DNA of 64,000 nt from Sphaerolaimus hirsutus (lineage: Eukaryota; Nematoda; Chromadorea; Monhysterida; Sphaerolaimidae): assembly GCA_964036195.1 (NCBI GenBank), contig OZ038455.1:4605855-4669854 (forward strand), in the 5' to 3' direction. A model generated the notes under the pieces. It had not been told where the DNA came from, searched no databases, and worked only from the letters and a program-made list of their open reading frames with translations. A program made the position numbers and the translations under genes. Of the stretch, positions 7,662 through 60,177 are shown piece after piece. Positions within the stretch are counted from its first letter, which is position 1; every line of letters starts with the position of its first letter.

Positions 7662-8387
7662 CAGAGTTGTTAAAATACTGGTATTTTTGGAAAGTGTAAG
7701 TGTGTTTTGAGTATGCAAATTTTGAGTATGCATACCAAAAGTGTAAGGTATTTTAAAAATACCTAGGAAAGTGTAAAAAAGTGTAAGTGTAAAATTTTTT
7801 TTAGAAAGAGCTCTCATTGTTGAGCATTAGAAAACACAGCTGTTCTCACCTTTAGATCAATTTATTTATCATTTTCATGCATCAAATTTTACGGCCTTTT
7901 TATGAAACATTTAAGACTGTCACAAATACTGTAGTGGTATGAAGTTCCCTAGTAATGGCACTTTTTCAGTGTTGATATTTTACTGATTAAACAATGCGAT
8001 ACACACTGTTTAAATGCAAGAATGGACATGCAGCAAATGTCAATGCAAAAGTTGACTTTGTGTCCAGCTGGTGAATTTCCATTGATCTTGTCCTTTTTAC
8101 AAAAGTATGATGAAACTGTAGAATACCATGAGTACTGATCAAAGGTTGTAGATCAAAGGCTAGTTTGTACATTTGCCATATTTTCTGCATTCAATGCATG
8201 CTTTCTCAAAAGCATGAAACAGTGCCATCTGAAAGAAAAAAATACACTTTCTGTACCTGGGTATATTGTCCAGGAAAGTGGTCAAAAAGTGTATGGGTAT
8301 TTGTTGAAAGTGTAAGTGTAAGTGTAAATATAAATACCCATTTACCCGGGTATTTCGGGTAAGTGTAAATACACTTTTGCAACTCTG
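7662..8387. mobile_element. hAT-like CAGAGTTGTTAAAA element, GTGTAA word type
   Basis: Left TIR CAGAGTTGTTAAAATAC and right TIR ending TTGCAACTCTG. Perfect 8-bp target duplication CTTTGAAG at 7654-7661 and 8388-8395. Both ends are arrays of AAGTGTAAGTGTA words; the core (about 7830-8230) is unique and non-coding. Confidence 0.92.
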
Positions 8388-8456
8388 CTTTGAAGCTTTA
8401 TAACTGGGCGATTTCTGAGCCGATTCGGATTATTAAACACTTTAAATGATCAGGAC

Positions 8457-8697
8457 TAGTGATGGAAAAGCGCCATGGCGCTGGCGCCTGGCGCTAGCGC
8501 CAAAGCAAAAAGCGCCATGGCGCTTTTGGCGCTTGGCGCCTTTGGCGCTTGGCGCCTTTTTGCTGTGGCGCCATTGGCGCTTGGCGCTGAGGTTTGGAAA
8601 AGCGCCATGGCGCTTTCGGCGCTTGGCGCTATGATGCCGTGGCGCCATTGGCGCTTGGCGCTAGTGTTTTAAAAAGCGCCAAAAAAGCGCCAAGAAG
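8457..8697. mobile_element. GGCGCC element (family III), right end missing
   Basis: Starts TAGTGATGGAAAAGCGCC directly after ATCAGGAC (8449-8456). It is an array of AGCGCC/GGCGCC palindromes and ends without the CCATCACTA terminus at about 8697. Confidence 0.75.
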
Positions 8698-9154
8698 TTT
8701 ACTCAAAATTCATCATTATTTTATGCATTAAGACCTGTTAAGTATGATTTACAAGTATATGTGCTACTGTCAGTGTATTCCCAGATCAATATACCCTATT
8801 CTTGATTACTTTATAAACAATTTCCTTGTGATTGCATGGGTATTCAACATTTGTCCCATCTAATCCGAATTATGTAAGGCTTTATGTGACTATTCATCTG
8901 ACTCGTAACACTGTTCACATAGGTTTTAGCTCAATCGCTATACTGAGCTCGTTCCTTGCAGTTTTGTTTGTGCAGGGTCAAAGGACCCTGAAAAGTGTGA
9001 AGTTGAGTAATAAACATCATCCAATATTTCATAAATACAACTTCGTTAAGTCTCATACGACATGTCAAAAGTTCAATCAAAAATTTTTCTTTTTTATTTT
9101 GATTGACATTTTACATCACATTTACTTCTTGACATTTGACACTTGATTTTACAG
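8698..9154. other. No recognised gene
   Basis: AT-rich sequence. A 104-codon open frame (8832-9146, +) has ordinary residue composition but no motif I recognise and no clear splice context; I do not call it a gene. Confidence 0.4.
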
Positions 9155-9238
9155 GGTGTGGAATCACTTTCTGAAGCCATTCCAACAATGGCGATCCAAA
9201 ATTTGAAACCTCAAAATCCTATGTTCAAAAGTGACTAG
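9155..9238 (+). CDS. Candidate terminal exon, unknown gene
   Basis: A good acceptor (CTTGATTTTACAG at 9154) is followed by 27 open codons in phase 0, beginning GVESLSEAIPTMAIQNLK, and a TAG stop at 9236-9238. The segment is less AT-rich than its flanks and polar in character. I do not recognise the protein. No upstream exon is visible, so chance cannot be excluded. Confidence 0.3.
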   Translation, partial: GVESLSEAIPTMAIQNLKPQNPMFKSD

Positions 9239-9537
9239 CAAAACTCGAAACTGCAATATTCTTGTAGAAAAATCGAAGTATTCCAAAAAAAAATTGAAAA
9301 CTTCATTTGAAATTTTTTTTGGGGGAAAACAACTAAATTCCAAAAGTAATTTTAAAAAACACCTAAAAAATCTTAGCACTTTTTAGAGATGGTGTGCTAT
9401 ACTTAAGCCCAAACACCCAGCTGCAAAATATAGAGACAAAAAGAACAAAAGTAACTGCAGTTGACTTGTATCTTGCGCCAAAAACAAATTAATAGCAGTG
9501 CATCAGCATGGCTGCATATGAGAAGCAAAAATTTTTT

Positions 9538-9815
9538 TGGCGCTGGCGCTATTGGCGCTTGGCGCCAATATCCTCTGGCGCCATTGGCGCTTGGCGCCGT
9601 GGTCTAGAAAAGCGCCATGGCGCTTTTGGCGCTTGGCGCCATTTTGCTCTGGCGCCATTGGCGCTTGGCGCTGGGGTTCGGAAAAGCGCCATGGCGCTTT
9701 TGGCGCTTGGCGCCATTTTGCTCTGGCGCCATTGGCGCTTGGCGCTGGGGTTCGGAAAAGCGCCATGGCGCTTTTGGCGCTTGGCGCCAAAGTCCTGGCG
9801 CTTTTTCCATCACTA
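9538..9815. mobile_element. GGCGCC element (family III), left end missing
   Basis: Array of GGCGCTTGGCGCC and AGCGCCATGGCGCT words with an internal direct repeat (about 9603-9690 and 9685-9775), ending TTCCATCACTA at 9815. It is followed by ATCAGGAC, the same 8-mer that precedes the 8457 copy. The left edge fades into TTTTTTTGG. Confidence 0.8.
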
Positions 9816-9905
9816 ATCAGGACAACCTGCAGATTCAATTTTTGTCGTCGGATTGGTGATGTCCAATTTCCGTATGCCGATTTGACCCGGTTTTTGAACA
9901 TGAAA
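9816..9905 (+). repeat. Parental repeat, right flank of the GGCGCC insertion
   Basis: ATCAGGAC, then AACCTGCAGATTCAATTTTT and GCCGATTTGACCCGGTTT. It aligns with the inverse of 12440-12527, next to another GGCGCC element. It is probably the missing right half of the repeat at 6684-8456. Confidence 0.65.
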
Positions 9906-9989
9906 AATAATCGTAAAAATAATTTTTCCAGACAGTTTTTTTGAACATGCTTTATAGTGGGTGTACACGCTAGTTTACCAACGCGGCAC

Positions 9990-10051
9990 GTCGATCAAAA
10001 ATGTAAACTGAAACGCGACGCGTCGCGCGTCGGTTTACATTTTTGATCGAC
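9990..10051. repeat. Perfect hairpin flanking GCGACGCGTCGC words
   Basis: The 19-bp arm GTCGATCAAAAATGTAAAC at 9990-10008 is perfectly inverted at 10033-10051. The loop is made of CGCGACGCGTCGCGCG. Further GCGACGCGTCGC words lie at about 10170-10210 and 10455-10465, so this is part of a larger word-array element whose ends I could not fix. Confidence 0.75.
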
Positions 10052-12023: not shown

Positions 12024-12027
12024 ATAA

Positions 12028-12527: not shown

Positions 12528-12706
12528 TAATGATGGAAAAGCGCCGTGGCGCTGGCGCCTGGCGCTAGCGCCAAAGCAAAAAGCGCCATGGCGCTTTTGG
12601 CCCTTGGCGCTAAAACGCTCTGGCGCCATTGGCGCTTGGCGCCATTTTCTGGTGGCGCTATTGGCGCCTGGCGCTGGCATTTTTAATGGTGCCAAAAAAG
12701 CGCCAA
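12528..12706. mobile_element. GGCGCC element (family III), far end missing
   Basis: Starts TAATGATGGAAAAGCGCC after GTCCTGAT, the inverse of ATCAGGAC. The flank at 12440-12527 is the inverse of 9816-9905. It ends within GCGCC words at about 12706. Confidence 0.75.
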
Positions 12707-12802
12707 CCGTGATTAGAAAAATGGTTATATTGATTGCAGTGAAAATTCACAATCCAGTTGTGCAATTTTGAGTACAACTGAATAAATACTGATAAATATA
12801 GG

Positions 12803-13426
12803 TAAAGTCGGCGGACATTTCATCCTACAAAATCGGAGAGTTAGAATTTGCTTGTGAATAGAGCGAACAACAAAACTTGTGTCTCACGCGGGCGCTAGAA
12901 ATTAAAAAAGAAAATCATATTAAAAGAAAAATGGACGTTTCGCTGCGTCAGTGCGTGCCACGCCCTAGTTATCTACATTTTCAACGTTGCTCGTAAAGAA
13001 TTTGACCGTTCAAACTACCGTTTTACCGTTCAAACTACCGTTTTTGTTTTTATTTTATTTTTCATTCGTTGGCTCCGTTCCAACAGAAGAGAACTTGGCA
13101 GCCGGCCAAAATTTCGAAATCCGCTATTAATATGAATAAAAAAGGGTCACAATAGCTATATAACCATGTATACAAACAAAAATAGCGATTATGAAGGTGG
13201 AAATTGGCAAAGCGAAGCAAATTTTAACGATTTTTAGCTAACTCTCAGTTTTCACTCTCATTTGTATAATATGCAACTGGTAACTGGGATGAGAGCCAAG
13301 TTTTCATACGTGACCCGACCTATTCTTATCGTTAAGATATTGCGTCACAATACCTAATGCCGTCATGCACTCTCCACTGGAGAGACTGACGCAAATGTTT
13401 GTAGGGCGATACGTCTACCGACTTTA
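12803..13426. mobile_element. Tc1/mariner-like MITE
   Basis: TAAAGTCGGCGGAC at 12803 is inverted as GTCTACCGACTTTA at 13426 with one mismatch. TA dinucleotides at both edges fit TA-target insertion. The interior is non-coding. A right-hand fragment of the same family lies at 2303-2564. Confidence 0.75.
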
Positions 13427-13429
13427 AGT

Positions 13430-14250
13430 CAACGATGGCAAAAACACAGAAATTGAACACAGAAACTCAATGAGTTTCTGTGTTTTTGTTTTACACAGAA
13501 ACACGGAAACTCAATAATTTGAAAAAACTCAAAACTCAAATGATTTTTTCATTGGAGAACACGGAAACACAGAAACACGGAAACACATAAAAGTTTTTTT
13601 TAGTTTTTTTCTTGGATTTGAGGATTTGAGGAATACTGCTGTAATCGACTGAACAACATAAGGAATGTGCATTTGATCAGGGGTCTCCAGTAATTTGGTC
13701 TCGATGGATAGCAATATTTCTGGCTGGTGATAGGTAGTGTGATAGATCAATAGATTGCTGGCCGATTTGGGGGCTACACCCAGCCCTCCCCCCATTGAAG
13801 ACCCCTGCATTTGATTTTGTTGACCATGTAGACATGTTGTTGATTTTTGTGGTGCTTTTTCCTACATTTGAATGATAGGGGGTTGGTACAGTGATGTTTA
13901 TATAATATCAATCACAGTCCATGTAAAATTTCATGTGAAGTGCAAACAGTAAAGTAAAATGTCATCAAAAATCCCAAATGCCCAGTTGAAAAATAAAATT
14001 TGACATTTTACATTTTTCAGCACATCTTTCAGGGTCTTCTGGTGCCACCTGTACATGCACAAAGTAATTTTCATGAGAAAACCAGTGTTTTTGCATTGAA
14101 ACACTGTATTTGGGCAAAAACTTGCATTTTATGAAAAAACTTGAGTTTTTACCAAAAACACAGAAATAAAAACAGAGTTACTCAGGTTTTTTATTGAGAA
14201 AAAACTCAAAACACAGGAAGTGTTTTTTCTGGAGAACTTACCCATCGTTG
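13430..14250. mobile_element. hAT-like CAACGATGG element, CACAGAAACAC word type
   Basis: Left end CAACGATGGCAAAAACA, right end CCCATCGTTG. Perfect 8-bp target duplication CTTTAAGT at 13422-13429 and 14251-14258. Both ends are arrays of AAACACAGAAAC or its inverse; the core (about 13620-14060) is unique. It inserted at the very edge of the Tc1-like MITE. Confidence 0.92.
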
Positions 14251-14324
14251 CTTTAAGTAAGGGTGTTAGGAGACATAAATATTTATTAAATATTGATTAG
14301 GTAATATTTGGGGTCAAAATTATA

Positions 14325-14570
14325 TACCGTATTTCCTTCCTCATTATCCCACCCTTGAAATAACCCCCTCGAAATACCACCCGTTTTTAATAACGTACAT
14401 CATGTATGCAATGTGCATGATGTATTATTTGCTGCCAATTTCCGTCGCAGATACATATAAAGTAGTTTGCATATGTATATATGCATATACCGTATTTCCT
14501 CGAAATATTCCCCTTTGAATTAATTAAAAATAAACCCCCATGGGGGTAATCCGAGGGGATTTTAACAATG
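14325..14570. mobile_element. Family IV fragments
   Basis: Two TACCGTATTTCC starts (14325 and 14488) in tandem with CGAAATACC-type words; the second runs into GGGGGTAATCCGAGGGG. No clean right terminus is seen. Confidence 0.6.
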
Positions 14571-14679
14571 TAAAAACATTGTAGTGGTTGATTGAACTTC
14601 AATGGCGGAAGTTCAATCGACTACTACGACATCAGTGGTGCGGTGCCGGTGCGTCAAACGACGTACAGGAAAAATTTTT

Positions 14680-14854
14680 TTGGCGCTGGCGCTATTGGCG
14701 CTTGGCGCCATCAGTCTTTGGCGCCATTGGCGCTTGGCGCTGAGGTTCAGCAAAGCGCCATGGCGCTTTTGGCGCTTGGCGCTATTTTGCTCTGGCGCCA
14801 TTGGCGCTTGGCGCTGGGGGTCAGAAAAGCGCCATGGCGCTTTTTCCATCACTA
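14680..14854. mobile_element. GGCGCC element (family III), left end missing
   Basis: Array beginning TTTTTTTGGCGCTGGCGC, as in the 9538 copy, and ending TTTTTCCATCACTA. It is followed by GTCCTGAT, so in inverse orientation it sits at the same ATCAGGAC site as the 8457 copy. Confidence 0.8.
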
Positions 14855-19434: not shown

Positions 19435-20455
19435 TAACGATGGCAAAAAAAGATTTGAAAATGCGAAAACATTTTCGAATTTTTGAATTTTTTCAGAATT
19501 TTCGAATTTTTATTTCGCCCCTAGTAAAAACACTAAAATTCGATTTATTTTTCAAAAAATTCAAAAATTCGAAAATAGTTTTCGAATTTTTCAGTCAATT
19601 CAAGGCAACAAAACGCACTCTTACGTTCAACGTGCTATATAAATCGACAATTGATACGCGGCGCGTATAAAAAAGCGAAACGTAAGAAACAAACGTTGAA
19701 ATGTAATCTGCGGTGGAAGATGCAGAACACATGCCAAAACAACTGACTGTGTTGTGTTACAACAGACGTGTCTATAGAGTCTTATAAATGGCAGTTTTTG
19801 TTGCATTTTTTGACATCTGTGTTACTTACAAACAACAATTTAGTACTGGAATTTTGAAAAATTTCAAGCAAAATAATAACCCCCCTCAAAATACACACCC
19901 TCGTTTAACCCCACCTCCAAGTTTCCACTCTGAAAAAATAAACCTGGGGGGGGCAGCCAGCAGGGGGGTTAATTCAAGGTAATACGGTATTTGATACCAA
20001 TTTTTTTATGCCGATATTTTATTTGATGTAAATTTTTCAATTGTTCTTGTTATTGCCTTCGCTGTGTTGGTGAATAAAATGTGCCAATGTGTGAATTAAA
20101 TGAAGAAGCAGCACACTGGTTTGAATAACTCCTTCCGCTTCCACCATTTTTAATGCTAAATTATGGTAAAAATAAGGTTGTTAAAACTGAGCAGAAACTT
20201 GAAGACAGTCCAAATTCTATGTTTTAAGCTTAATATTCAATATTTTACCAAAAAGATTCGAAAATTATTTGAAAAAATTCAAAAACTAGCCAAAAAAATT
20301 CAAAAATTGCCAAAAAAGATTCAAAAATTCGAAATTCGAAAATTAAATTCAAAATTTGAAAATTAGTTTGAAGAAAAATTCGAAAATTCAAAAATTCATT
20401 TCAGAAAAAACACTTAAAAATTTAAATACTTTTTTTCGACTGTTTGCCATCGTTA
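19435..20455. mobile_element. hAT-like TAACGATGGCAAA element, TTCGAATTTTTGAA word type
   Basis: Ends TAACGATGGCAAA and TTTGCCATCGTTA; target duplication GTAAAGAC (19427-19434) and GTTAAGAC (20456-20463) with seven of eight matching. The subterminal words are AATTTTTCGAA types. A truncated family IV element sits inside at about 19755-19989. Its TIR is close to that of 13430-14250, but the words differ. Confidence 0.87.
19755..19989. mobile_element. Truncated family IV element, nested
   Basis: The core GTCTTATAAATGGCAGTTTT matches 58710-58740. The right end is TCAAGGTAATACGGTA. The left half is missing. Confidence 0.7.
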
Positions 20456-28671: not shown

Positions 28672-29119
28672 GTTTTGTATGGATACATTAGTGATTTTGA
28701 AGGTTATGGCGGTGGCGGGTGGGGACATTATGAAAACAGCAACCAATTTTGTTCATTTGATATGTTGCAAATAATTTTGGCTTGTTGCCAAAAAACCCAT
28801 CTCAACGTTATCAGGATGCAGGAGCTTCAAAATGTTGTAAAATCAATCAAAATTCATTCAAACTAACAAAAATATTCTGTCCAGTAGATGCATGTCGCTT
28901 GGCATAGGGAATGTTCAAACGGAATAAAACATTAGTGCAAAAATTTCCTTTTTTGTTAGTCGCTCCTTTTCGCAGTATTTTTGAAAAACCGGTTTTCAAT
29001 TTGCCCGGTATTTATGTCACTGTGAAATTGTCTTATCTGCTGCGAACAGATGGTGACATTGTGGGCGTTGTTGTGCTGTCGTTTTTTTAGCATTGTTGTG
29101 TTGTGCTGTCGTCGTTTTG
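28672..29119. other. Duplicated flank of the RRM exon, then unexplained sequence
   Basis: 28680-28790 resembles the flank of RRM copy A (ATACATTAGTGATTTTGAAG). 28800-29119 shows nothing I recognise. Confidence 0.5.
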
Positions 29120-30320
29120 CAGTGTCTGGAAGTCCTGTAAAAGGCCCTGTAAAATGTCAAATGTCATGCAAAGTGTCAAAAGTCATGGAAAATGCCTGCA
29201 AAATGGTGACTCGGCTGCCATTTTGCAGGGCATTTTACATGACTTTTGACACTTTGCATGACATTTGACATTATCCAGGGCATTTTACAGTGTCTGGAAG
29301 TCCTGTAACAGGCCCTGTAAGATGTCAAATGTCATGCAAAGTGTCAAAAGTCATGGAAAATGCCTGCAAAATGGTGACTCGGTTGCCATTTTGTTGGGCA
29401 TTTCCCATGACTTTTGACACTTTGCATGACATTTCACATTTTACAGGGCATTTTACAGTGTCTGGAAGTCCTGTAAAAGTCCCTGTAAAATGTCAAATGT
29501 CATGCAAAGTGTCAAAAGTCATGGAAAATGCCTGCAAAATGGTGAGACGGTTGCCATTTTGCAGGGCATTTTACATGACTTTTGACACTTTGCATGACAT
29601 TTCACAATTTACAGGGCATTTTACAGTGTCTGGAAGTCCTGTAAAATGCCCTGTAAAATGTCAAATGTCATGCAAAGTGTCAAAAGTTGTGGAAAATGCC
29701 TGCAAAATGGTGACTCGGTTGCCATTTTGCAGGGCATTTTACATGACTTTTGATACTTTGCATGACATTTGACATTATACAGAGCATTTTACAGTGTCTG
29801 GAAGTCCTGTAAAAGGCCCTGTAAAATGTCAAATGTCATGCAAAGTGTCAAAAGTCATGGAAAATGCCTGCAAAATGGTGACTCGGTTGCCATTTTGCAG
29901 GGCATTTCCCATGACTTTTGACACTTTGCATGACATTTCACATTTTACAGGGCATTTTACAGTGTCTGGAAGTCCTGTAAAAGGCCCTGTAAAATGTCAA
30001 ATGTCATGCAAAGTGTCTAAAGTCATGGAAAATGCCTGCAAAATGGTGACTCGGTTGCCATTTTGCTGGGCATTTCCCATGACTTTGACACTTTGCATGA
30101 CATTTCACATTTTACAGGGCATTTTACAGTGTCTGGAAGTCCTGTAAAAGGCCCTGTAAAATGTCAAATGTCATGCAAAGTGTCAAAAGTCATGGAAAAT
30201 GCCTGCAAAATGGTGACTCGGTTGCCATTTTGCTGGGCATTTCCCATGACTCTTGACACTTTGCATGACATTTCACATTTTACAGGGCATTTTACAGTGT
30301 CTGGAAGTCCTTGGAAAAAT
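29120..30320. repeat. Tandem array of a palindromic ~168-bp unit (TGTCAT family)
   Basis: Unit starts CAGTGTCTGGAAGTCCTGTA at about 29120, 29288, 29456, 29626, 29790, 29959, 30127 and 30295. Each unit is itself an inverted repeat: CCTGTAAAATGTCAAATGTC and CATGCAAAGTGTCAAAAGTC, then the inverse. The period of about 168 is a multiple of three, so long open frames arise (29290-29772, 29794-30147, 30063-30443), repeating a 56-residue unit; I regard these as non-coding. Dispersed single relatives lie at 41735-43012, 47639-47832, 49948-50124, 57764-58162 and 59507-59962. Confidence 0.9.
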
Positions 30321-30454
30321 AAAAAGCGACTTTGGAAACCATTTTCACTTTCAAAACGGAAAAGTGTCAGAAATTTGAAGCAAAACCTGAAACCTGAAAT
30401 CTTAACAAAAACGGACGAAAATCAAAGTAATCGAGCATTTTAATATCAGAGCAT

Positions 30455-31565: not shown

Positions 31566-31765
31566 NNNNNNNNNNNNNNNNNNNNNNNNNNNNNNNNNNN
31601 NNNNNNNNNNNNNNNNNNNNNNNNNNNNNNNNNNNNNNNNNNNNNNNNNNNNNNNNNNNNNNNNNNNNNNNNNNNNNNNNNNNNNNNNNNNNNNNNNNNN
31701 NNNNNNNNNNNNNNNNNNNNNNNNNNNNNNNNNNNNNNNNNNNNNNNNNNNNNNNNNNNNNNNNN
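31566..31765. other. Assembly gap (200 N)
   Basis: Exactly 200 Ns within the retroelement/hAT repeat block. Confidence 0.99.
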
Positions 31766-32029
31766 CACGCACGCAGTCATTTTTTTAGTACGCCTCCTCG
31801 TTCGCTTCTCGTTCACTTTCTTTTTTGTGGTTGTACGCTTTTTCAAAAGCGTAAAACTGGACCGTGTGAAACGTTTTTTACGCTTTTAGTACCCGGGTAT
31901 TTCGGCTGGGCAAGCGTAATAAAGCGTATGGGTATTTTATGAAAGCGTAAGCGTAAGCGTAAATATAAATACCCATTTACCCGGGTATTTCGGGTAAGCG
32001 TAAATACGCTTTCGCAACTCTGGTTCAAA
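31766..32029. mobile_element. hAT-like CAGAGTTG element, GCGTAA word type (right part)
   Basis: AAGCGTAAGCGTAAGCGTAA and AAAAGCGT words, then TACGCTTTCGCAACTCTG at the right end. The layout matches 7662-8387 (including ACCCGGGTATTTCGG), but every GTGTAA is GCGTAA. The left end lies in the gap. Confidence 0.8.
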
Positions 32030-34889: not shown

Positions 34890-37110
34890 AATTGCACATG
34901 TATAGGGGGTTGACTTGAGTTTTTAGGGGCTGAGTTTACAATTCAGGGTTGAGTTGATGGGTGTTGATAAATTAGGGTTGAGTTGACAGAAGTTTAAAGA
35001 TAAGGGGCTGTTGACACAAGTTTAAAAATTAGAGGCTGAGTTTATGGGAGTTGAGTTGATGGGTGTTTGCCAAATTAGGGGCTGAGTTTATGGGAGTTAA
35101 CAATAACATTACCATAATCCTTAAGTGAGGCCCCCGGGGCTAAAAAATATAAATTGTGATATAATGCATTTGTGGGTTACTGATTACAATGATTTGAAAT
35201 ATGCACTCCATTCTGACAGTACATTACGATAACCCTGAAATTGAACCCAAAATGGGGCCAAAATTTTCAAATTGTGAAATGATGCATTGTGGGTTTCTAA
35301 TTGCACTGATTTGATATATAATGCACTCCATTTTGACACTACATTACCATAACCCTGAAAATGAACCACTGGGGCCAAAAACTTTCAATTTGTGAAATGA
35401 TGCATTTTTGGGTTTCTGGTTGCACTGATTTCAAATTTAGGTTTCTGATTGCACTGATTTGATATATGCACTCCATTGACACTACATTACCATAACCTGA
35501 AAAATGAACCCATGGGGCCAAATACTTTCAATTTGAGAAATGATGCATTTTCAGGTTTCTGATTGCACTCATTTGAAATATGCACTTCATTTTGACACCA
35601 CATTACCATAACCCTGAAAATGAACCACTGGGGCCAAAAAATTTCAATTTGTGAAATGATGCATTTTTGGGTTTCTGATTGCACTGATTTCAAATATGCC
35701 CAGGGCTTAAAAAATTAGAAATTGTGAAATGATTCAATGTGGGTTTCTAATTGCACTGATTTGAAATATGCACTCCGTTTTGACACTACATAACCCTGAA
35801 AACTACATAACCATAACCCTGAAAATGAACCTCTGGAGCCAAAAACTTTCAATTTGTGAAATCATTCATTTTTGGGTTTCTGATTGCACTGATTTCAAAT
35901 GTGGGTCTATGATTGCACCAATTTGATATATGCACTCCATTTTGACACTACATTACCATAACCCTAAAAATGAACCCATGGGGCCAAATACTTTCAATTT
36001 GAGAAATGATGCATTTTCGGGTTTCTGATAGCACTCATTTGAAATATGCACTTCATTTTGACACTACATTACCATCACCCTAAAAATGAACCCCCTGGGC
36101 CAAAAACTTTCAAACCATAAAATGATGGATTTGTGGGTTTCAGAGTGTAGCTATTTCAAATATGCCCAGGGCTTAAAAAATTAGAAATTGTGAAATGATT
36201 CGATGTGGGTTTCTAATTGCACTGATTTGAAATATGCAATCCATTTTGACACTACATAACCCTGAAAACTACATAACCATAACCCTGAAAATGAACCTCT
36301 GGAGCCAAAAACTTTCAATTTGTGAAATCATTCATTTTCAGGTTTCTGATTGTAGCGATTTCAAATATGCACTCCATTTTGACACTACATTACCATAACC
36401 ATAAAAATGAACCCCCTAAGCCAAAAACTTTCAAATCATAAAATGATGCATTTGTGGGTTTCTGATTGTAGCGATTTCAAATATGCACTCCATTTTGACA
36501 CTACATTACTAAAACTCTGAAATTGAACCCCTAGACCCAAAAATATCTATTTGTAAAATGATGCATTTTGCAGGTTTCTTATTGCACTGATTTGAAATGA
36601 CTCAATTTCAACTCTACATTACTGTAAGCCTTAAATTGAACCCATGGGGCTAATAAATTAGAAATTGTGAAATGATGCATTTGTGGCTTTTTGATTGCCT
36701 TGATTTGAAATATGCACTTCATTTTGACACTACATTACCATAACCCTGAAAATGAACCCCCAGGGCCAAAAATTTTCAAATCATAAAATGATGTGTTTGT
36801 GGGTTTCTGATTGTAGCGATTTCAAATATGCACTCCATTTTGACACCACATTACTAAAACCCTGATAATGAACCCCTGGGGACAAAAACTTTCATTTTGT
36901 GAAATGATGCATTTGTGGGTTTTTTATTGCAGTGATTTGAGATGTGCACTCCATTTCTACTCTACATTACCATAACCTTTTAAGTCTAACCCTTGGGGCT
37001 AAAAAATTGAAAATTGTGAATTGATGCATTTGTGGATTGATGATAGTGATTTTTTGAAATATTCATACCATTTTCACACTACATTACCATAAACCTGAAA
37101 ATGAGTTTAC
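34890..37110. repeat. ~115-bp satellite (with 30-bp minisatellite at left) inside Helitron copy 1
   Basis: Monomers contain GATTGCACTGATTTGAAATA, TGCACTCCATTTTGACACTA, CATTACCATAACCCTGAAAA and TTGTGAAATGATGCATTTGT. About seventeen diverged monomers run from 35130 to 37110, some in higher-order pairs. At 34890-35100 a GAGTTTATGGGAGTT minisatellite precedes them. Confidence 0.88.
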
Positions 37111-38535: not shown

Positions 38536-38892
38536 TTATGCATAAATGTGACATCAGCTGAACCTTGGTGACTTGGCTATTGGCCAAGAATGTTATATGG
38601 TGAATATAGCCAGCCCCACAGCACATTGATAAAAACGGTCGGTTTCTTTCGTTACGGTCATTGTTTACTGTGGAAAATATCGTGCACGTGAAAAACACAT
38701 CTAAATTTAGCTACGTGCAACCGAATGCTATGAAATTTGGTGTGCGGGTGGACGACACCTACCCCTACCTAACACTAGCCCATGACCTTCAGTAGCTTCC
38801 CATGTCCTAGTACATTCAATAAAAAATGCCCTGTGGACGACCGGTCGGTTTCTTTCTTTACGCCGTTTATCTATCATGGAGGCCGCTCAGCC
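38536..38892. other. No recognised gene
   Basis: Unique-looking sequence with a direct repeat of GGTCGGTTTCTTTC (38637 and 38843). No gene is seen. Confidence 0.4.
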
Positions 38893-39390
38893 ATAGTTGT
38901 TAAAACGTATTTACGTTTACTCGATAATTACAGATACTCTAGTACTGCGTAAATACGTTTACGTTTCCTCGCGAAAATTACTGGTACTCACTTACCTGCA
39001 AACTTTTTGAAAGTACGCGAGTACAGAAAACGTATTTTTAGGGGACCGATTATGTCATTTTGCCAAACAGAAAGTGACAAACATAGGACATTCTCGTAAG
39101 AAACACTTAGCATCTTTTTGTATAACAGAGTAAAAATTCAAAAAATGTTGACTTTTTTTTGAGAAAAATAGTAACTTTTACATTTTCTGTGAGAAAAGAT
39201 ACCCGTTTTTTACGTTTTTTTTCCACAAAAAAGTTCGTGTTTACGTTTTATCTAAAAAAGTATTTTAGTTTTGCGCAGTTTAAAAGTATTTAAAAAATAC
39301 TTTACGTGTTCTGTACTCAGGGGTAAATAAAAGAAAAATACTTTACGTTTACATTTACTTTCAAAAAAGTTCAGTACTTTTAACAACTCG
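38893..39390. mobile_element. hAT-like AGTTGTTAAAA element, ACGTTTAC word type
   Basis: TAGTTGTTAAAACGTATTTAC at the left and GTACTTTTAACAACTCG at the right; flanks CTCAGCCA and CTCAGCTA agree at seven of eight. The words are TTTACGTTTAC/GTAAACGTAAA. Confidence 0.78.
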
Positions 39391-41250: not shown

Positions 41251-44200
41251 CTGGGGGGGGGGGTAATTATAAATATGATTAATTTAATTTGTTTAGCCTT
41301 TTTGAGTTCACCGGAATGCAGCGGTTTCCGGTATTTTTACCTTTGCGGGGGTTGGATAGATTGCAAATCACTTCTACAGTAGGACAGATAGTTGAATGCT
41401 TTTTTTTTATTTTGGGTGGGGGGGCTTGCGGGGCCTCAATACACCTATACGCTTTTTATATTATTATATATACCCCTGCCGAACCCCCCCCCCCACCCTG
41501 AACGGGTGACGCTTTATCTTCATAACGAGTACTTTACAGACACCTGATTCTAGTAAACTAGGACGCATTCTAATCTGATTTACCTTAAATCCTCGAATTA
41601 GACCCCAGGGAAGTTATAGTTTCCTCCAACTTACAACACCACCCAAACCCCATCACAAATCATTCAGCTATCAATCTACCCAAGGAGTGATTTGCGACCT
41701 ATTGAACCCCACCAGGGTAAAAAACCTGAAGACACCTGGGTGTCACTCCCAAATCTCAAGCCCTGTAAAATTCCCTGTCAAATGTCATGCAAACTGTCAA
41801 AAGTCATGTAAAATGCCCTGAAAATGGCAAATGAGCGGTAAACAATGTGACATGTTACAGGGAAAATCTGAACAATCACAGGGCATCAAACATGACTTTT
41901 GACATTTTAATGACATTTTACAGGGCATCATACACGACTGTTGACACTTTGCATGACTTTTCACACTTTATAAGGTATTTTACATGACCTTTGAAACTTT
42001 GCAGGACATTTCACATTTTACAGGGCACTTTACAGGGTCCTGGAGGGGAAACCCCCCAGGGGGCACTTCCAGACCCTGTAAAAGACTCTGTAAAGTGTAA
42101 AAGACCTTGTAAACTATCATGTGTCATGTAAAAGACCCTGTAAAATGTCATGTGTCATGTAAAACACTCTGTAAAGTGTCATGTAAAAGACCCTGGAAAA
42201 TGTCATGTGACATGTAAAAGACCCTGTAAGGTGTCAAATGTCATGTAAAACACCCTGCAAAGTATCATGCGTATCCAAATCTTTTTTTATCAGTTCCAAA
42301 TCTTATGTTTTTGTATCCAAATCTTACTTTTTGACGTAAGATTTTGATACAAAAACATGACATTTGGATATGATAAAATAAGATTTGTATACACAGGTCT
42401 TTTGCATAACATTTTACACTTTACAGGGTCTTCTACATGACAGCACAGTTGTTAATGCGTATTTACTTTTACTCAAAAAGTACGCATACTCAAGTACCTA
42501 GTAAATACGCAAACGCATACTTTGAAAAACGTATTTGTACTCGCCTGTACGCTTACTTTTTGAGAGTACTCGAGTACAAAAGAGTAATTTTTAAGAGTGC
42601 ATCAATAGTATATTTAGCGAGTAGTAAAAGAGTAAGAGAAAAATAAAATCAACGGGTGTAAATAAAAAGTGCTCATAAAGTTTATAAAAAAACATTTATA
42701 ATGCTCCATTCTACATTTTCCAGAAAGAAACAGTAATTTCACTGGCTTTTACGCTTTCCTGACAAAAAATACTCGCATTTACGCTTTCTGTTAAGAATTA
42801 TTATTTTACTCTTATTTACTCGTGAGTAAAAGTATAAAAAAATTACTTTACGCTTTCTCTACTCGAAGGTGAGTAAAAAAGAAGTACTTTACGCCTACGC
42901 ATACTTTGAGAAAAGTTCCGTACTTTTAACAACTCTGCATGACACTTGACACTTTACAGGGTCTTTTACACTTTATATGGTCTTTTACAAGGTCCGGGGC
43001 TGTTCCAGGGCCGTTCCAAGACCGACCCGCGTGCGCGCTGATCATTCTAATGCAGAAGACCCCGTCGACGCCGAGAAATTTGTGCACGAATTTTTTCACC
43101 GACTGCGCATCAGACGTGAGGTCCGTGGCTCGCAAATAGCGCCGGATGAAGCTCACCCGCTGCGGGGGGGGGGGGGGGGGTTTGGTGACAAAAGGTTGGG
43201 TGTCAGGTTGTCACAAGTGACGGGCGAATATGGTTGTGACGAGAAGACTTTGCGATATTGATATTTTATATTTTTTACTGAAACTCGATATCGATGTAGA
43301 CTTTCGATAGCGATATGGTCCCTCGATATCGATATGGACCTTCGATAGCGATATGGTCCCTCGATATCGATATGGACCGTCGATATCGATATTCAATGGG
43401 AAAAATGGCCTACATATATACTCGAATAATTCCCCCGCCTTGAATATTCCTCCCCCTTGAATAATTCCCCCCTCTTACACGAGTGAGGACAAAATAATTC
43501 CCCTCGAATAATCCCCCCTTTAGGCATATGATGAAGTTTTTGAATCCAATTTGGACAAAAATTACATTTTTTTCATAAATAACGCATTTTTCATGAAATC
43601 AGTTCATAGAAACCTGCTTAACATTTTTGGACAAAATAATAATTCCCTCCCTTGAATAATCCCCCCCCCCTCGAATAGTTCCCCCTCAAAAGTCTGACGA
43701 AAGAATAATTTCACGGGGGATTATTCGAGTATTTACGGTATATCTGATATTCACTATGAAATTTTCTCGACGTCCATATTCCATACAATAAATAACGTAT
43801 TTGCTTGAATAATCCATCAGGGGGATTATTATTTCGCCAGACTTTTTTGAGGGGGGAGCTATTCGAGGGGGGAATTATACTAGGGGGGGGGGATAATTCT
43901 TTCGCCAAAATTTTTGAGTATCTTTCTATCAAGTCATTTGACGAAATATGCTTTTTTAACACAAAAATATGCCATTTTTGTTAAAATTTGGCACAACTAA
44001 TTGATCGAATATCTTTAAGGGGGGAGGAATTATTCTTTCCTCACTCATTGTACAAGGGGGGAATTATTCGAGGGGGATATTTTTTAAGGGGGGAACTATT
44101 CAAGCAAATGCGGTACATCGCTCAAACCCTTCGTGCGAACGTGTGTCAAGAATCAGTATACCGTATTACCTCGAAATACCCCCAGTGGGTTTATTATTTC

Positions 44201-47200
44201 GCCAGCAAAATTTGAGGGGGGATAATTCGAGGGGGGTTTATTCGAGGGGGGAGTCTATTATTTCGCCAGAAATTTTCGGAAATTCCCCATACGCAGACGT
44301 AGAAAAATCGAACAATCACATTTAATGACATATACATTTACTGGCATATATTACTATATACCGTATTACCTCGAATTATCCCCCCCCTTGAATTAACCCC
44401 CCCCTCGAATAAACCCCCCCTCAAAATGGGCTGGGGAAATAATAAACCCCCCCCTCGAAATACCCCCCCCCTTCGGAATGATGTACGTCATGTACATAAT
44501 AAACACATCATGTACGCAATGTACATGATGTATATTACTGTTAATTTGCATTGCAGCTACACATAGACTAGCCTGTGTAGCTATCTACGTTTTTATGTCC
44601 AATTATATCCTGTTTGGACACATTTATTACCTATTTTGGGTACACAAATGCCTACTATTTACTACGATCCTTACAAAAATTTCTGACGAAATAATAAACC
44701 CCCCCCCTCGAATAACCCCCCCCCCTCGAATTAACCCCCCCTCAAATTTTGCTGGCGAAATAATAAACCCCCATGGGGGTATTTCGAGGTAATACGGTAT
44801 ACACAAAAACCCTTCCCTAACGTCACTTAATCATCAGTTTTAACGTGTGTTCTGCATAGTACAGATCACGAACTGCGGTATTTGTCATGTACGGTCACGT
44901 TACACTCAATTTTAGGGGGGGGGGGGGTTATTATTTCCTCAGCCAAAATTTAGGGGGGTATTTCGAGGGGGGGGGGGTTAATTCAAGGGGATTCGAGGTA
45001 ATACGGTAAGTATTTATGCCTGTAGACACACCCGCCGGGAGGCATTCGTTACTTCACCAGTTCACGTCACAATAATTCACAGCAAAAAATTGGTGTGTGA
45101 TGCGCGGTGAAGTGTCCTGAAGTGACTTCACGCAGACGCGCAATTCCAGATGCTTCATGGCACTTCACGAACCATGCAAAGTATGCTGCAAAGGTTTGTG
45201 AACTGCACTTCAAGAATTTCGGTCTCGTGAAGCTAGGTGAAGTGAGTGGAAGACACTTCACTGAAAACTTCGTGAAGTGTGTGGAAGTGAGTGGAAGTGT
45301 CTTCACAGAGCTCACTTCCACACACTTCACGAACCCATTTTTTGCTGTGATTGTTTACACACTATGAGTAGAAAATTAAAAAAACGCACCTGTCCTGGCA
45401 GGAAAGCAATAAAGCACCAGTGTATCAAAGACAGAAATGTAACTACTGTAACCATGACAACCCAGAACCATAAAAATAGAAATATTTTTTCATTGAACAT
45501 GTTTATCATTAGCACACATTGCACAGTGTGGTGGTGCACATTTCCAAGTACCCGTACCTGTAAAATATGTTTTTTTGTGTGTTTGGATTTGAGATTGAAT
45601 TAGCAAAGGATGTGTTCATTTTGGTGTATTTGTTTACCTTTTGATTTTTTTTGTGTGCAGATATAGGTAATCTGCAGAGTTGGAAAAACGTATTCACGTT
45701 TACCCGAAATACCCGGTTATTCGGGTATTTATACTTACGTTTACGTTTACGTTTTCATAAAATACCGTTACGTTTTGTTACGTTTTCCTGACTGAATTAC
45801 CCGGGTACCAGAGAAAACGTAAAAAACGTTGTGAGACCCAAAAAATTTCCGCAAAATGCAACTTCCGCCATAAATTTCCGACAACTTTAAAAATTTTGCG
45901 CGCCAACGCACACTTTTCCTCCACAGAAGCCGTATTTTCAAAAAGGTATAGGTATTCAATATTCAAATTATACTATGGTTCGACCCCACCTGCAGTGCAG
46001 AGTATTATGTATTTATGTATTACTTCCCAAACTCGAATTGTGCCAAATGCGTTTAAAAAAGTCAGCGGATGCTGTTATTTAGTGGCTTTTATGGATTAAT
46101 TTGGTGCTTTTTGAAAATCAAATGTTGAAAGAACTCTATGAATCGCCATAATATAATTTTTTGTGACATAACACTTGGGAAAACGTTGACAGAACGTAAC
46201 AAATTGTTTGAAAAACTGGCGAAAAAATAGAAGGGTAGCTTCCAAAAACGGCGTCTCCATAATAGAATGTTGGCGAAAAATAGAAGGGCGCCCTCCCATT
46301 AGATGAAATACAGTAATAATATTTTTACGTTTACATTTTATTTTACGTTTTCCCAGGTATTTTAAAAATACCTTACGTTTTAGTATTTATACTTTCATTT
46401 TGGAAAAGGTATTTACGTTTACGTTTACGTTTTCCAAAAATACCAGTATTTGACCAACTCTGGTAATCTGCAACAATTAAATTTATGAGTGACAAGAATT
46501 GTCATTTCGAAATTCATTTGATCTACACCTAGTAGAACGCATACTTTGTGCGCAATCCTACCATAATCTAATGAATAAAATCTTGTGATAAATTTCATAA
46601 TTAATTATTCCATGGTAAAAATGAACTATTTTGATGAAAAATGGTATAATCTTTGGTTCATTATTCAGATGGGTTATGGTAGGTTTTCATATTAAGTGTT
46701 ACGTCCATCGAGTAAATCACATTTTTCTTCTCAATTGCCGCCTAGTAGTGCCCCCCTTCGAATAACCCCCTCACAATTAGCTGGCGAAAAAATAAAACCC
46801 CTGGGCCTGGGGCTGGCGGTATTTCGAAAAAATACTGCATTTTCTTTTTTTTAAATAAGAAACACTAAAACCCACACAAACCGACCTCAAAATCGCACAT
46901 AGTCACCCTTGGAAAAGCGCCTGAAGCTTCCCACTCTCTACCAGCCAATAAATCTCTGGCAATTCTAAGTCCGAAAAATGGGTCGTTCATACCCAAAAAG
47001 GCGTCCAAAAGAAACACTTGAGCGGCGGCATTGAGCAGAAATAGACTTTTGGTGCAAATGTAGAGCGCGCAGATTAGACTGGTTGAAAAACGGGCGTCCA
47101 TCACCTGGGGCAGTGGAAAATGTGAGTGTAAATGAGGGGTACAGTGATAAGAGCCCAAAATTTCAAAAATTGGGTTGAGCACATATATGAGATTTTGGTA

Positions 47201-53341: not shown

Positions 53342-53834
53342 CAGAGTTGTTAGAATTACTGAACTTTTTTCAAAAGTAGATGTAAATGTAAGTATTTTAT
53401 TTTTACTCACCACAAAGTATAGAAAATGTAAAATATTTTTTAACTCGTACTCGTCGGTAAATGTGAGTAAAATACTTTTTTCCACAGGAAAATGTAAAAG
53501 CGAGTACTTTTCCCCTGGAAAACGTTTTTTTACACTAATTTTTTACATATGAGAGTTAGTTTTACACTGAAAGACAATATATGTTATTTTTTGTTAGTGA
53601 TTATTCAGTGTTTTGTAGAAAAATGCTATGATTTTTTCAAAAACTGTCTTATTTTAGCAACAGAAAATTGTGATTTTAGCAACAAAAAATACGTTTTCTC
53701 TGTACGCGTGTACTTTTAAAATGTACGCGTAAAATAAAGAAAATTACTTTTTTTAAAGTATATGTAAATGTATTTACCGCGTACTCGCGTACGCGTATTT
53801 TTCGAGTAATTGTACGTACATTTTTACAACTGTG
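53342..53834. mobile_element. hAT-like CAGAGTTG element
   Basis: CAGAGTTGTTAGAATTACTG at the left and ATTTTTACAACTGTG at the right; perfect 8-bp target duplication CCATGAAG at 53334-53341 and 53835-53842. The words are AAATGTAAG and TACGCGTA. Confidence 0.92.
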
Positions 53835-57137: not shown

Positions 57138-57345
57138 GTTGTGGCCACACAAGCTAGTTTTCAACCAAAATTATGAAAACTCATAAATCAGCATTCAACA
57201 CATTTGAGTTTTCTAGAATGAGTCATTTTTACATTCTGTCAACTGTAGGTGACGTGTACCTCATTCTAGGAAACTCAACTGTGTACAATGCTTATTTACA
57301 AGTTTAAAAAAATTTTGGTTGAAAACTAGCTTGTGTGGCCACAAC
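57138..57345. mobile_element. MITE with perfect 35-bp TIRs
   Basis: The 35 bases at 57138-57172 (GTTGTGGCCACACAAGCTAG onward) are exactly inverted at 57311-57345. The inner arms remain similar (AAACTCA, AATGAGTCATTTTT). The CACAAGCTAGTT core relates it to family I. The perfect TIR suggests recent activity. Confidence 0.92.
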
Positions 57346-57763
57346 CACAATGTCTTTCACTTTCACATAAATACACATCTAGTCCCCCAACCTTACATCT
57401 TACTTTTCCAATGAAAATTTCACGAAAAAAAGCCAAAAAAAGGTAAAATTCTCTCAATAATGACGATTTCACGCTGACTTTGTTCGCACGATACTCAAGA
57501 CAGCTATCAATATCAAACTAGAAGCGAGTTAATTAAGCGCCCCGAAGCGCGTGTGACCCAAACCGTGAAAATGCCCAGATCTGATTTGTCTGCGGCGGCG
57601 GGGAAGTTTTCAATTTTTAGTCGCAAAGAGAAATAATGGAAAAAATTGGAGATTTATTTTTGAAGAATAAAATCATTCTATCTGTGAAAATAATGGGAAA
57701 AATGAAATTATAAAAACATGTCAATGGAAAGACTGAAAGACTGTCAAACCTCAAAAGCAGTGA
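57346..57763. other. No recognised gene
   Basis: Unrecognised sequence; short frames on the minus strand show no family resemblance. Confidence 0.4.
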
Positions 57764-58162
57764 CACTCTGGTGTCACTTCCAGATCTTGCAAAATGCCCT
57801 GTGAAGTTTAAATTGCCATGCAAAGTAATGTAAAATAACATGTACAATAGTAAATCTCATGCAAAATGTCAAAAATATCTCAAATTTCATGTAAAATTTT
57901 GCAATGTCATCCAAAGTGTCAAAAATTACGTGAAATGTCCTGTAAAATAACACATGTCATGCAAAGTGTCAAAATTCATGTAAAATACCCTGTAAAATGT
58001 CAACTGCCATGCAAAGTGTCAACAATCATGTAAAATATAACATATCATGCAGTGTCAAAAGTTATGAAAATATGTAAAATGCCCTGTAAAATGTCAAACG
58101 ACAAGTAAAAGTTAAAACGAATTTTGACATTTTACAAGTGTCTGAAATCGCCCCCTATACAA
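57764..58162. mobile_element. TGTCAT-family element
   Basis: GTGTCACTTCCAGATCTTGC at the left and TTTACAAGTGTCTGAAATCG at the right. The interior is about nine TGTCATGCAAAGTGTCAAAA words in one orientation, unlike the palindromic members. Confidence 0.75.
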
Positions 58163-58462
58163 CTTCTCCGCCAACACATCATCACCGAACCCCCCAGATG
58201 CGGTGCAATGCGGAACGGAGATGCAATACCTATGGATTTACGCGGCGCGCGCCAGACGCGAAAATTTCTATTGCATGATAGCACTGGTGCATTTCGCACA
58301 TTTTGTATATATACTCATCTGATCTAGGTAAATATTTATGTGTGTCATGTTCTCTGTGCACCGGGAAATATATAAAATCTACTCAAATACAGAAATAGGT
58401 GTATAGACACATTTGTGGAATGGATAAACACAAGTTATATAGTGACAACAGTTGCAGTTATA

Positions 58463-58913
58463 TACTGTATTTCCTCGAAATACCCCCCCCCCTCGAAATA
58501 CCCCCCCCCCTCGATTGACCCCCCCTCTCGGGACCACTATGAAACAATCACCCCCCTCGAAATACCCCCCCCCCCCCAAATTGAGTGTAAAGAGAACGTA
58601 CATGACAAATACTGCAGTTTGTGTTCTGCGTAGTGCAGAACACACGTTAAAACAATGTCGTAATCACGTTAGAACAGTGTTTATACCATCTACGTACTTA
58701 TATTAGTATACAGAACCTTATAAATGGCAGTTTTTGTTGCATTTTTCGACGTCGGCGTACGTTTCAGACGACAATTTCGTACTTGGTTTTCAAAAATTTT
58801 CTTGTGAAATAATAACCCCCCCTCGAAATACCCCCCCTCGTTTAACCCCCCCCCCCTCTCGGGACCACTATGAAACAATCACCCCTCGGGGGGTATTTCG
58901 AGGAAATACGGTA
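58463..58913. mobile_element. Family IV element, complete
   Basis: TACTGTATTTCCTCGAAATA to TTTCGAGGAAATACGGTA, with oligo-C runs. The core matches 4740-4904 and 5740-5970. Confidence 0.87.
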
Positions 58914-59139
58914 GCTCTATTTGCAGTCCCGCATCCATTATGACTACATATGTACACTAATTAGTTGACCGTTGAACGGTTGTCAACTGAAAATAGGTTT
59001 AAAACGTAGGCGTGTGAACGTAGGTCAGTCAACGTGAACAAACTTAAAGTGTCAGCGTGAAAAAACCACCCCAGAACCGAACAACTTTGATCTTATCATA
59101 TTATATTATCAGACAGGTAATCACCCACTGTTACATGAG

Positions 59140-60177
59140 CAGGGTTGGTTTTATAAAAATTCATTTTAGTAAAATTGTATAAAAATTGTATAAAAATTTT
59201 ATTTTATTTTTATTTTATTCTTGTTTCATTTTATTTTATTTTATTTTATTCCCAAAAGTCATTAATAAAATAAAATGACACATTTTACAAAAATTTTACA
59301 AAAATTGTACAAAAATTTTACAAAAAAATCAGAAACATGCATGCAAAGCCAGAAAAATGTTATAATTAGACATATACATGAAAAACCTGTGACAAATTTT
59401 TCCCTTACTTTTCAAAAGTTGCATGCAGTATGTATTGTTAGCTAGCTGCAAGTGTAAAGTTACAATTATTGATAAGAATGGTTTGCATTTTCAGTAGAAA
59501 GACTACTGGAGTGTGCTGGGCACATTTGTAAAATGTCATGCAAAGTGTCAATTGTCATGACAAATGTAAAGTAAAGTATCAATTGTCATGCAAAATGTCA
59601 AGTGTCATGTAAAATTTCAAGCAAAGTGGCAATTGTCATGACAAATGTCATGCAAAGTGTAAATTGTGTATCCAAATCTTGTGTTTTTGTATCCATAGTA
59701 TGTTTTATATCCACATCTTATGTTTTTGTATCCAAATGTTCACATAAGATTTGGAGTCAACAACAACATAATTTGGATACAAAACATAAGATTTTGAAAT
59801 AAAACATGATATTTGAACACAATTTGCTTGACAATTGATACTTTAATTTTCACATGTCATGACAATTTACACTTTACTTTACATTTTTCATAACAATTGA
59901 CACTTTGCATGACATTTTACATGACATTTGACACTTTAGAATGCTCGGGACTGCCCCCAGATCCATGAAATTTTACAAAAAATATGAATTTTTATACAAT
60001 TTTACAAAAATATGAATTTTTATACAATTTTACAAAAATTTTACAAAAATTTGAATTTTTATACAATTTTTATTTTTATTCTTCAATTTTCCATTTTATT
60101 TTATTTTATTTTATTCTTGAATATTCCATTTTATTTTTATTTTATTTTTATTTTTTTCTGAGATTTTGCCAACCCTG
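59140..60177. mobile_element. hAT-like CAGGGTTGG element, TTTTATTTTATT word type
   Basis: CAGGGTTGGTTTTATAAAA at the left and GATTTTGCCAACCCTG at the right; perfect 8-bp target duplication TACATGAG at 59132-59139 and 60178-60185. The arms are TTTTATTTTATTTTATT and ACAAAAATTTTACAAAAA words. A TGTCAT-family element (about 59507-59962) is nested. Confidence 0.92.
59507..59962. mobile_element. TGTCAT-family element nested in hAT-like element
   Basis: GTGTGCTGGGCACATTTGTA at the left and GAATGCTCGGGACTGCCCCC at the right. It contains TGTCATGCAAAGTGTC words and a TGTATCCAAATCTT inverted patch as in 42265-42390. Confidence 0.7.

Follow-up and report, generated by a model that had tools for sequence, protein, structure and literature searches.

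Why do transposon copies with the same terminal inverted repeats (TIRs) carry arrays in which one short word is exchanged throughout for another? The question is raised by a 64-kb stretch of DNA (the window) from a 348-Mb eukaryotic genome that is rich in non-autonomous hAT elements composed of a TIR, a word array and a variable core. An initial annotation had proposed that the window elements share this plan with 8-bp duplications, which is borne out by exact 8-bp target-site duplications (TSDs) at nine elements, by two further TSDs with 7/8 identical bases and by word counts above those of shuffled sequences in 12/12 elements tested. It had also placed copies at 7662, 31766, 38893, 42444 and 45675 in one TIR family. 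These copies fall into two end types, A (7662, 31766, 45675) and B (38892, 42444, together with 53342), but the proposed change of the whole word holds within each type: family B copies 38892 and 42444 differ as ACG and GCG, as is seen in family A. The copy placed at 38893 does carry an ACGTAA array, but its first base is 38892 and the three terminal TIR bases are missing on the right. The window has no Rfam or tRNA match. The elements are as follows.

6735-7545, unstranded: TAGTGATG family, word GGGCGCC; exact TSD GTCTGGGC
7662-8387, minus strand: family A, word AAGTGTAA; bounded by a right-like (T) end at 7662 and a left-like (E) end at 8387; exact TSD CTTTGAAG
8457-9815, unstranded: TAGTGATG family, word AAGCGCC; exact TSD ATCAGGAC
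12528-14854, unstranded: TAGTGATG family, word AAGCGCC, interrupted by the inserted element 13430-14250; exact TSD GTCCTGAT
13430-14250, unstranded: CAACGATGG family, word CACAGAAA, nested in 12528-14854; exact TSD CTTTAAGT
19435-20455, unstranded: TAACGATGG family, word TTCGAA; TSD 7/8; end type common to hATC loci L078 and L079
26501-27211, unstranded: TAGGGTTCAAACG family, word ATATCGA; exact TSD GATTTGAG; end type common to hATC loci L075, L076 and L077
31766-32022, minus strand: family A, word AAGCGTAA, E end alone, the opposite one being lost to assembly gap 31566-31765
38892-39388, plus strand: family B, word ACGTAA; right end without the terminal 3 TIR bases; 8-bp flank CGCTCAGC repeated
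42444-42937, plus strand: family B, word GCGTA; TSD 7/8
45675-46462, plus strand: family A, word AAACGTAA; exact TSD GTAATCTG; T-end type of the hATC-bearing locus L072 (136/147)
53342-53834, minus strand: family B, words ATGTAA/GCGTAC; exact TSD CCATGAAG; end resembling hATC locus L071 (117/133)
59140-60177, unstranded: CAGGGTTGG family, word TTTTATTT; exact TSD TACATGAG

The 31766 copy has one end only because it begins at the assembly gap. Elements 8457-9815 and 12528-14854 were considered as copies of one duplication, which is ruled out by their unrelated cores. Each word count was set against the highest value among 200 first-order Markov shuffles, with words picked after the list in the initial annotation and the 53342 element left out. 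Family A counts (shuffle maximum in brackets) are GTGTAA 9 (5) at 7662, GCGTAA 7 (3) at 31766 and ACGTAA 13 (5) at 45675; those of family B are ACGTAA only 6 (5) at 38892 and GCGTA 9 (4) at 42444. GCGCCA reaches 34 (5) at 6735, 58 (6) at 8457 and 35 (6) at 12528, and the remaining words give ATATCGA 24 (5), CACAGAAA 6 (1), TTCGAA 16 (8) and TTTTATTT 16 (5).

The elements belong to the hAT superfamily, as had been proposed; TIRs, TSDs and linked transposase domains all point there. The hAT 8-bp target duplication has the consensus nTnnnnAn, and in 47 exact TSDs listed by hand, T at position 2 or A at position 7 occupies 60/94 positions against a 30% background (P = 2.6e-11). Exact 8-bp TSDs flank 19/23 family A elements. 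The hAT C-terminal domain (hATC, PF05699) has 28 genome matches, of which 14 were fetched, spanning 13 loci, and it adjoins a matching TIR and word array in 13/13 loci examined. The Pfam match was confirmed in 5/5 fragments tested, and the four PDB matches of the domain (E 4-7e-9) are all transposase chains, two of them named Hermes. Of the two domains expected in autonomous relatives with the same ends, hATC is thus present; zf-BED (PF02892) has 8 genome matches, none within 80 kb of the hATC matches listed, and introns or divergence could hide the domain. Three small stretches beside relatives of the L072 domain are L082 with a GCG-like core (one visible word, in L085), L083 with a degenerate T end, its array falling beyond the stretch, and L084 with a family B end. 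The sole GCG-like candidate, C2:8096474, has a single visible word, TTACACTTA (GTG), possibly through decay. No hATC match at E 0.05 or better occurs in the family A elements fetched, and 19 aligned family A elements measure 578-1347 bp. The TIR string CAGAGTTGTTAAAA has 8299 genome matches compared to 9 for a reversed control. The elements are MITE-like: short, high in copy number and without transposase.

Family A copies come from the window and mostly from stretches around exact CAGAGTTGTTAAAA matches along the initial 4.6 Mb of contig C1; ACG copies are under-sampled (2/23) because of this mode of sampling, which whole-genome counts correct. In a matrix of 26 E ends and 34 T ends, homologous ends keep their spacing and flanks (6/72 flanking positions differ), and all 15 scored word sites read AAGTGTAA, AAGCGTAA or AAACGTAA, abbreviated here to GTG, GCG and ACG. 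Within-copy word concordance is 0.784 compared to 0.315 after shuffling (SD 0.009, maximum 0.349, 2000 shuffles) for 37 copies, 14 of them single-ended, with site T4 excluded and one duplicate pairing (L013) dropped. The same word occurs at both ends in 22/23 elements. Site T4 reads GTG in GTG and GCG copies alike, and one word has been gained or lost in some copies (L024, L015, L020). Random per-site word variation is ruled out by the concordance, and simple-sequence expansion in family A by fixed homologous positions, unequal spacing and the use of both orientations. Subfamily descent by itself yields word concordance.

Genome-wide, three-word T-end arrays with RYR words of any kind number 3961, and 2959 of them are pure, holding a single one of the three words throughout (GCG 930, ACG 1091, GTG 938). 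Together with the concordance, these counts uphold the earlier suggestion that words change in concert and define discrete subfamilies. Arrays of G[C/T]G words total 2055, so that 187 mix GTG and GCG, compared to 1541 expected under independent, equal-frequency sites. Near-exclusive words also occur in two other TIR families, and the words ATATCGA, CGGGAT and GGGACC occur on one TIR.

The word change in family A is base substitution in place, with transitional copies. In a word-masked tree, GTG copies form a clade nested in GCG (support 0.992). Two divergent copies, L053 (162/204) and L031 (246/280), have GTG-type cores yet GCG-rich or mixed words, which argues that the switch was stepwise by substitution and not by array homogenisation. 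Decayed sites outside the GTG lineage are 15 GTG to 13 GCA (6 to 9 without L025); despite the presence of both products there, switched consensus sites are GTG in 15/15 cases (P = 6e-5). GCATAA, the other CpG product, persists at 2-3 per element in 7/8 GTG elements. Strand-biased deamination is ruled out, as the change tracks word orientation and not strand, and both CpG products are present among decayed sites. Tests for an excess of word differences per base between consensuses are weak (Fisher tests; GCG/GTG P = 0.043, GCG/ACG P = 0.29, GTG/ACG P = 0.0004), and the ACG class is represented by a single T-end copy.

Comparison with Hermes makes the proposed role of the words as transposase sites plausible, both in geometry and in the bound motif. 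In Hermes, a hAT element of Musca domestica, the left end has subterminal repeat STR1 in sense and STR2-7 in antisense orientation, the right end has STR1-5 in sense, STR1 and STR2 are paired in LE11-27, the BED-bound site is AAG(T/C), and left-end sites more than 50 bp in are dispensable in cells (PMC10368747). The family A E end has one word in plus orientation, then six in minus and then one in plus, and all T-end words are plus except T4. These asymmetric orientations and the paired words near the left tip, here at bp 14-25, are Hermes-like; sites T4 and E8 depart from the Hermes layout. AA directly precedes GCGTA 176 times and GTGTA 167 times, and GCG and GTG words fit AAG(T/C), their C/T difference falling on its ambiguous base, whereas the AAACGTA class (47) does not fit. 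Compared with Hermes as covered in that source, copies within a single genome here differ in the word that makes up the whole array, and the BED domain was not found at the hATC loci.

Other transposons also bear arrays. Maize Ac/Ds elements have TIRs, 8-bp TSDs, cooperatively bound AAACGG arrays and non-autonomous copies with unrelated filler (PMC3260210). They resemble the present elements in TIR, TSD and arrays, and the ACGGAA/CGGAAA words of TAGGGTGTCAA elements, often present as AAACGGAAA, resemble AAACGG; word-switched subfamilies are not described in the available part of PMC3260210. In Arabidopsis VANDAL elements, short motifs form dense arrays that vary from one related element to another, and coevolution with an element-encoded binding protein, VANC, has been proposed (PMC5735166). 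VANC is an anti-silencing protein, and VANDAL arrays are said there to change by tandem-repeat formation, in contrast to substitution at fixed sites in family A. Coral MITEs (PMC2872659) were set aside as a comparable system because they are linked to piggyBac. CACTA elements, with their TNPA protein, have subterminal repeats in two orientations that differ between families; they are alike in array layout, but they belong to another superfamily. Among the literature matches listed (open papers, judged by title and abstract start), none concerns word-switched hAT arrays, and raw TIR strings retrieved no transposon paper among the 20 of 108 matches listed.

The best reading is that the words are probably transposase binding sites and that word switches track changing transposase specificity. 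We infer this change in specificity for transposases known here from C-terminal domains rather than as complete proteins. Several observations weigh against it: the hATC matches listed have no zf-BED match within 80 kb, the GCG-like candidate shows a GTG word (possibly decayed), AAGC and AAGT both fit the Hermes site, the consensus tests are weak, T4 does not differ between GTG and GCG copies, subfamily descent would itself produce concordance, and inner left-end sites are dispensable for Hermes in cells. The subterminal words would be binding sites of a Hermes-type hAT transposase that needs many matching sites at both ends. In a AAGCGTAA lineage, the sites would have changed to AAGTGTAA one after another, with mixed arrays as intermediates, followed by amplification of fully matching copies; AAACGTAA and AAGCGTAA would be related by the same route, with less certain direction, and comparable word sets are seen in other TIR families. 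The words would be bound, selection by a transposase with altered specificity would have driven the switch, and the three word classes would now be separate mobilisation groups. A more far-reaching form of the same reading is tentative: an autonomous hAT element could shift its recognised word and so escape thousands of titrating non-autonomous copies, new non-autonomous copies would then adopt the new word, and successive, mutually orthogonal systems (ACG, GCG, GTG) would arise on one TIR, a series that at least three TIR families of this genome would each have gone through independently.

It is rather unlikely that an unchanged, tolerant transposase accounts for the pattern, with CpG mutation turning GCG into GTG, GCA rejected, and classes arising from a few amplified masters. 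One such enzyme might read both words because AAGC and AAGT both fit the site that Hermes accepts (PMC10368747); GCG copies already have GTG at T4, and the window and fetched loci have CpG o/e 0.884, TpG 1.18 and CpA 1.17. A tolerant enzyme should, however, mobilise mixed arrays, and these are the 187/2055 minority; it also leaves the ACG/GCG difference unexplained, along with the three dissimilar words on one TIR. Less probable still are words that serve a host repressor or a VANC-like anti-silencing protein, with switches that track escape from silencing. VANC motif arrays are likewise short, dense and variable between related elements (PMC5735166) and GTG words lack CpG, but word geometry follows Hermes transposase ends and words sit beside TIRs at both ends. 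Homogenisation of arrays by gene conversion or slippage, akin to the unspecified process first suggested and to VANDAL tandem repeats, whose units Hosaka et al. inferred to have evolved together (PMC5735166), is very improbable despite the single-word gains and losses, since family A sites lie at homologous positions in distinct flanks (66/72 unchanged) in both orientations at both ends, mixed intermediates exist and conversion tracts would need to be ~6 bp. Arrays of other TIR families look more repetitive, and this case covers family A.

If the specificity-change reading is true, transposases should prefer their own word among AAACGTAA, AAGCGTAA and AAGTGTAA and reject AAGCATAA. It touches the open question of multi-site recognition, in which the specificity of a DNA-binding enzyme must shift jointly with about 16 dispersed sites. 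The genome appears to contain numerous arrays of ancestral, transitional and derived type, along with transposase genes that share their ends, and the path of the switch is therefore open to reconstruction and testing. Word switching suggests a mechanism for hAT family turnover.

A terminal inverted repeat (TIR), a subterminal array of short words and a filler core are ordinary hAT/Ds biology, and this plan, proposed for the window by the initial annotation, is borne out by nine elements whose 8-bp target duplications (TSDs) are exact; two more match at 7/8 bases. In 12/12 window elements tested, the word is more frequent than in any of 200 first-order Markov shuffles, though by a narrow margin in element 38892 (6 versus 5). 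Across the genome (348 Mb, 762 contigs; the window is G000:C7:4605855-4669854), CAGAGTTGTTAAAA has 8299 exact matches versus 9 for its reversed control. The copies had been assigned to one family; their CAGAGTTG TIR is indeed shared, but they split into two end types:

Family A: left-like (E) end beginning CAGAGTTGCGAAA..., right-like (T) end beginning CAGAGTTGTTAAAATACCGG...; annotated window copies at 7662, 31766 and 45675.
Family B: ends CATAGTTG, CACAGTTG or CAGAGTTG, one end of the element carrying a TACTGAAC motif; window copies at 38892, 42444 and 53342.

Copies of family B with CATAGTTG-type ends mostly have ACGTAA; 2/25 family B elements have GCG instead (42444-42937, and 739-1225 of fetched locus L038), with four GCGTAA and zero ACGTAA. 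Elements 8457-9815 and 12528-14854 have reverse-complementary TSDs and inverted shared flanks (69 and 98 aligned bases), the same orientation and unrelated cores, which points to two insertions into the same site of an inverted repeat and suggests a target preference. The window also contains a 168-bp tandem repeat (x7) at 29115-30421, with related words elsewhere in the window, and repeats at 116-bp spacing common to 35131-37108 and 61045-62671, with G-rich minisatellites nearby. Many TACCGTATTTCCTCGAAATACCCCCC-like units occur in both orientations (5601-5705, 44355-44489, 58441-58545 and others), some inside hAT elements (e.g., L025 2336-3226).

Family A words change in concert at fixed sites. 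In an alignment of 26 E and 34 T ends, including 23 two-ended elements (exact TSD in 19/23), eight word sites were scored per end. At 15 sites the word is GTGTA, GCGTA or ACGTA, with AA almost invariably in front of it; at the remaining one, T4, the GTG and GCG classes both have GTG, and the ACG class has AGG. Concordance within copies amounts to 0.784 versus 0.315 when word states are shuffled among copies site by site (SD 0.009, maximum 0.349, 2000 shuffles), and the modal word is identical at both ends in 22/23 elements, the exception being mixed copy L031. The GCG and GTG consensuses differ at the same word position in 15/15 sites and at 6/72 near-flank positions. When all word bases are counted against non-word bases, the excess of differences is modest, since each word changes at one of its five bases (GCG/GTG, P = 0.043; GCG/ACG, 0.29; GTG/ACG, 0.0004; the ACG class is represented in this comparison by three E ends and one T end). 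Locus L013 (1660-2555) is a tandem-ended copy: its two T ends are separated by 140 bp, and both have GTG words.

Discrete subfamilies extend genome-wide. There are 3961 matches to TTTGGAAA-w-TAA-w-TAA-w-TAAATAC, where w stands for any purine-pyrimidine-purine triplet, and 0 to its reversed control; 2959 arrays are pure (GCG 930, ACG 1091, GTG 938). Permitting G[C/T]G at every site gives 2055 matches, so 187 are mixed, versus 1541 expected for independent sites at equal frequency. Arrays occur at 14/16 TAGGGTTCAAACG ends (TIR with ≤1 mismatch), each holding one word class (ATATCG 5, CGGGAT 4, GGGACC 5) on what appears by eye to be a common scaffold after the TIR. Among 47 exact-TIR TAGTGATG ends, 23 have arrays: 17 GCGCCA-type (0-2 GGCACC), five GGCACC-type (0-1 GCGCCA) and one mixed. 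The GCGCCA type has subtypes, with AAGCGCC and GGGCGCC counts of 8 and 0 at window 8457, and 1 and 9 at 6735. At L009 8686-8723, two word classes are neighbours: 37 bp separate a GCGCCA-word TAATGATG end from a GGCACC-word TAGTGATG end on its outer side.

In a word-masked FastTree tree (230 columns, 23 family A elements, rooted on ACG as outgroup), GTG copies form a clade nested in GCG copies (support 0.992); the ACG versus GCG direction depends on this root. Two mixed copies, L053 (GCG 7, GTG 3, GCA 3, GTC 1) and L031 (GTG 7, GCA 3, GCG 2, two others), lie on long branches inside the GTG clade; mixed copies L025 and L012 lie outside. L053 and L031 cores match those of GTG copies (162/204 and 246/280) but not those of GCG copies (at best 46/60 and 22/25). 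Since GCG is not produced by CpG decay of GTG, we infer that the GTG-type core lineage formerly had GCG words and that these copies catch the switch midway. Decayed sites outside the GTG lineage comprise 15 GTG and 13 GCA (6 and 9 without L025), so decay yields both products. Switched consensus arrays have GTG at 15/15 sites (P = 6e-5 for one product only). Whole elements retain 2-3 GCATAA, the other decay product, in 7/8 GTG copies and 0 in the window copy; the three in L024 and in L019 are in the core (with one GTGTAA in L019), and the L006 core has two plus one GCGTAA. Array sites therefore look constrained in a way that core sites do not.

The hATC domain (PF05699) has at least 28 genome matches. 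The 3' side was fetched for 14, in 13 loci, and a known TIR with its own word array lies downstream in 13/13:

TAGGGTGTCAA with ACGGAAA: L069, L070, L073, L074, L080, L081.
TAGGGTTCAAACG with ATATCGA: L075, L076 (two hATC copies, one end), L077.
CAGAGTTG end: L071, L072.
TAACGATGG with TTCGAA: L078, L079.

A search for autonomous relatives with same-word termini had been suggested as a check; hATC is found at matching ends. The eight zf-BED matches in the genome lie away from the hATC loci, where introns or divergence could hide this domain. Six fall within 23 kb (G000:C1:7466186-7488779), possibly a host BED gene family. The L072 T end is ACG type (186/198 identical to element L021 3210), and its transposase fragment matches four PDB chains at E 4-7e-9; all are transposases, and two carry the name Hermes. 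Downstream of a relative of this domain at C2:8096474 lies a core that resembles L025 at 78%, and the first word visible there, TTACACTTA, is compatible with GTG or decayed GCG. L022 8462-9326 and L010 match L071 (369/380 and 363/380 bases) and retain the last transposase codons, which marks them as internal-deletion derivatives. Given Hermes gene orientation, the transposase gene end is expected beside the right end, and the hATC gene here ends beside the T end. In L020 (373-2350), a TAGGGTGTCAA element, core open frames resemble, by eye, retroelement reverse transcriptase.

The Hermes left end has STR1 sense and STR2-7 antisense, with STR1 and STR2 paired in LE11-27, and its right end STR1-5 sense (PMC10368747). 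Family A E ends similarly run +, six −, then + (first pair at bp 14-25), and T ends are all + except T4, which departs. The GCG/GTG switch falls at the C/T position of the Hermes BED site, AAG(T/C) (PMC10368747), and AAACG of the ACG word resembles the Ac site AAACGG (PMC3260210); AAACGG also occurs in TAGGGTGTCAA elements. By this analogy the words very probably act as transposase sites. On balance, the switches most likely track a change in transposase specificity. The chief rival, a tolerant enzyme with CpG pressure, fits poorly with the rarity of mixed arrays and with word differences that are not of CpG kind.

In VANDAL elements, motif arrays are proposed to diverge with their binding protein, VANC, and to change by tandem-repeat formation (PMC5735166), whereas the family A words here are replaced at fixed homologous sites. 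None of the open-literature matches listed (titles and abstract openings) describes such en-bloc replacement in hAT ends with transitional copies.
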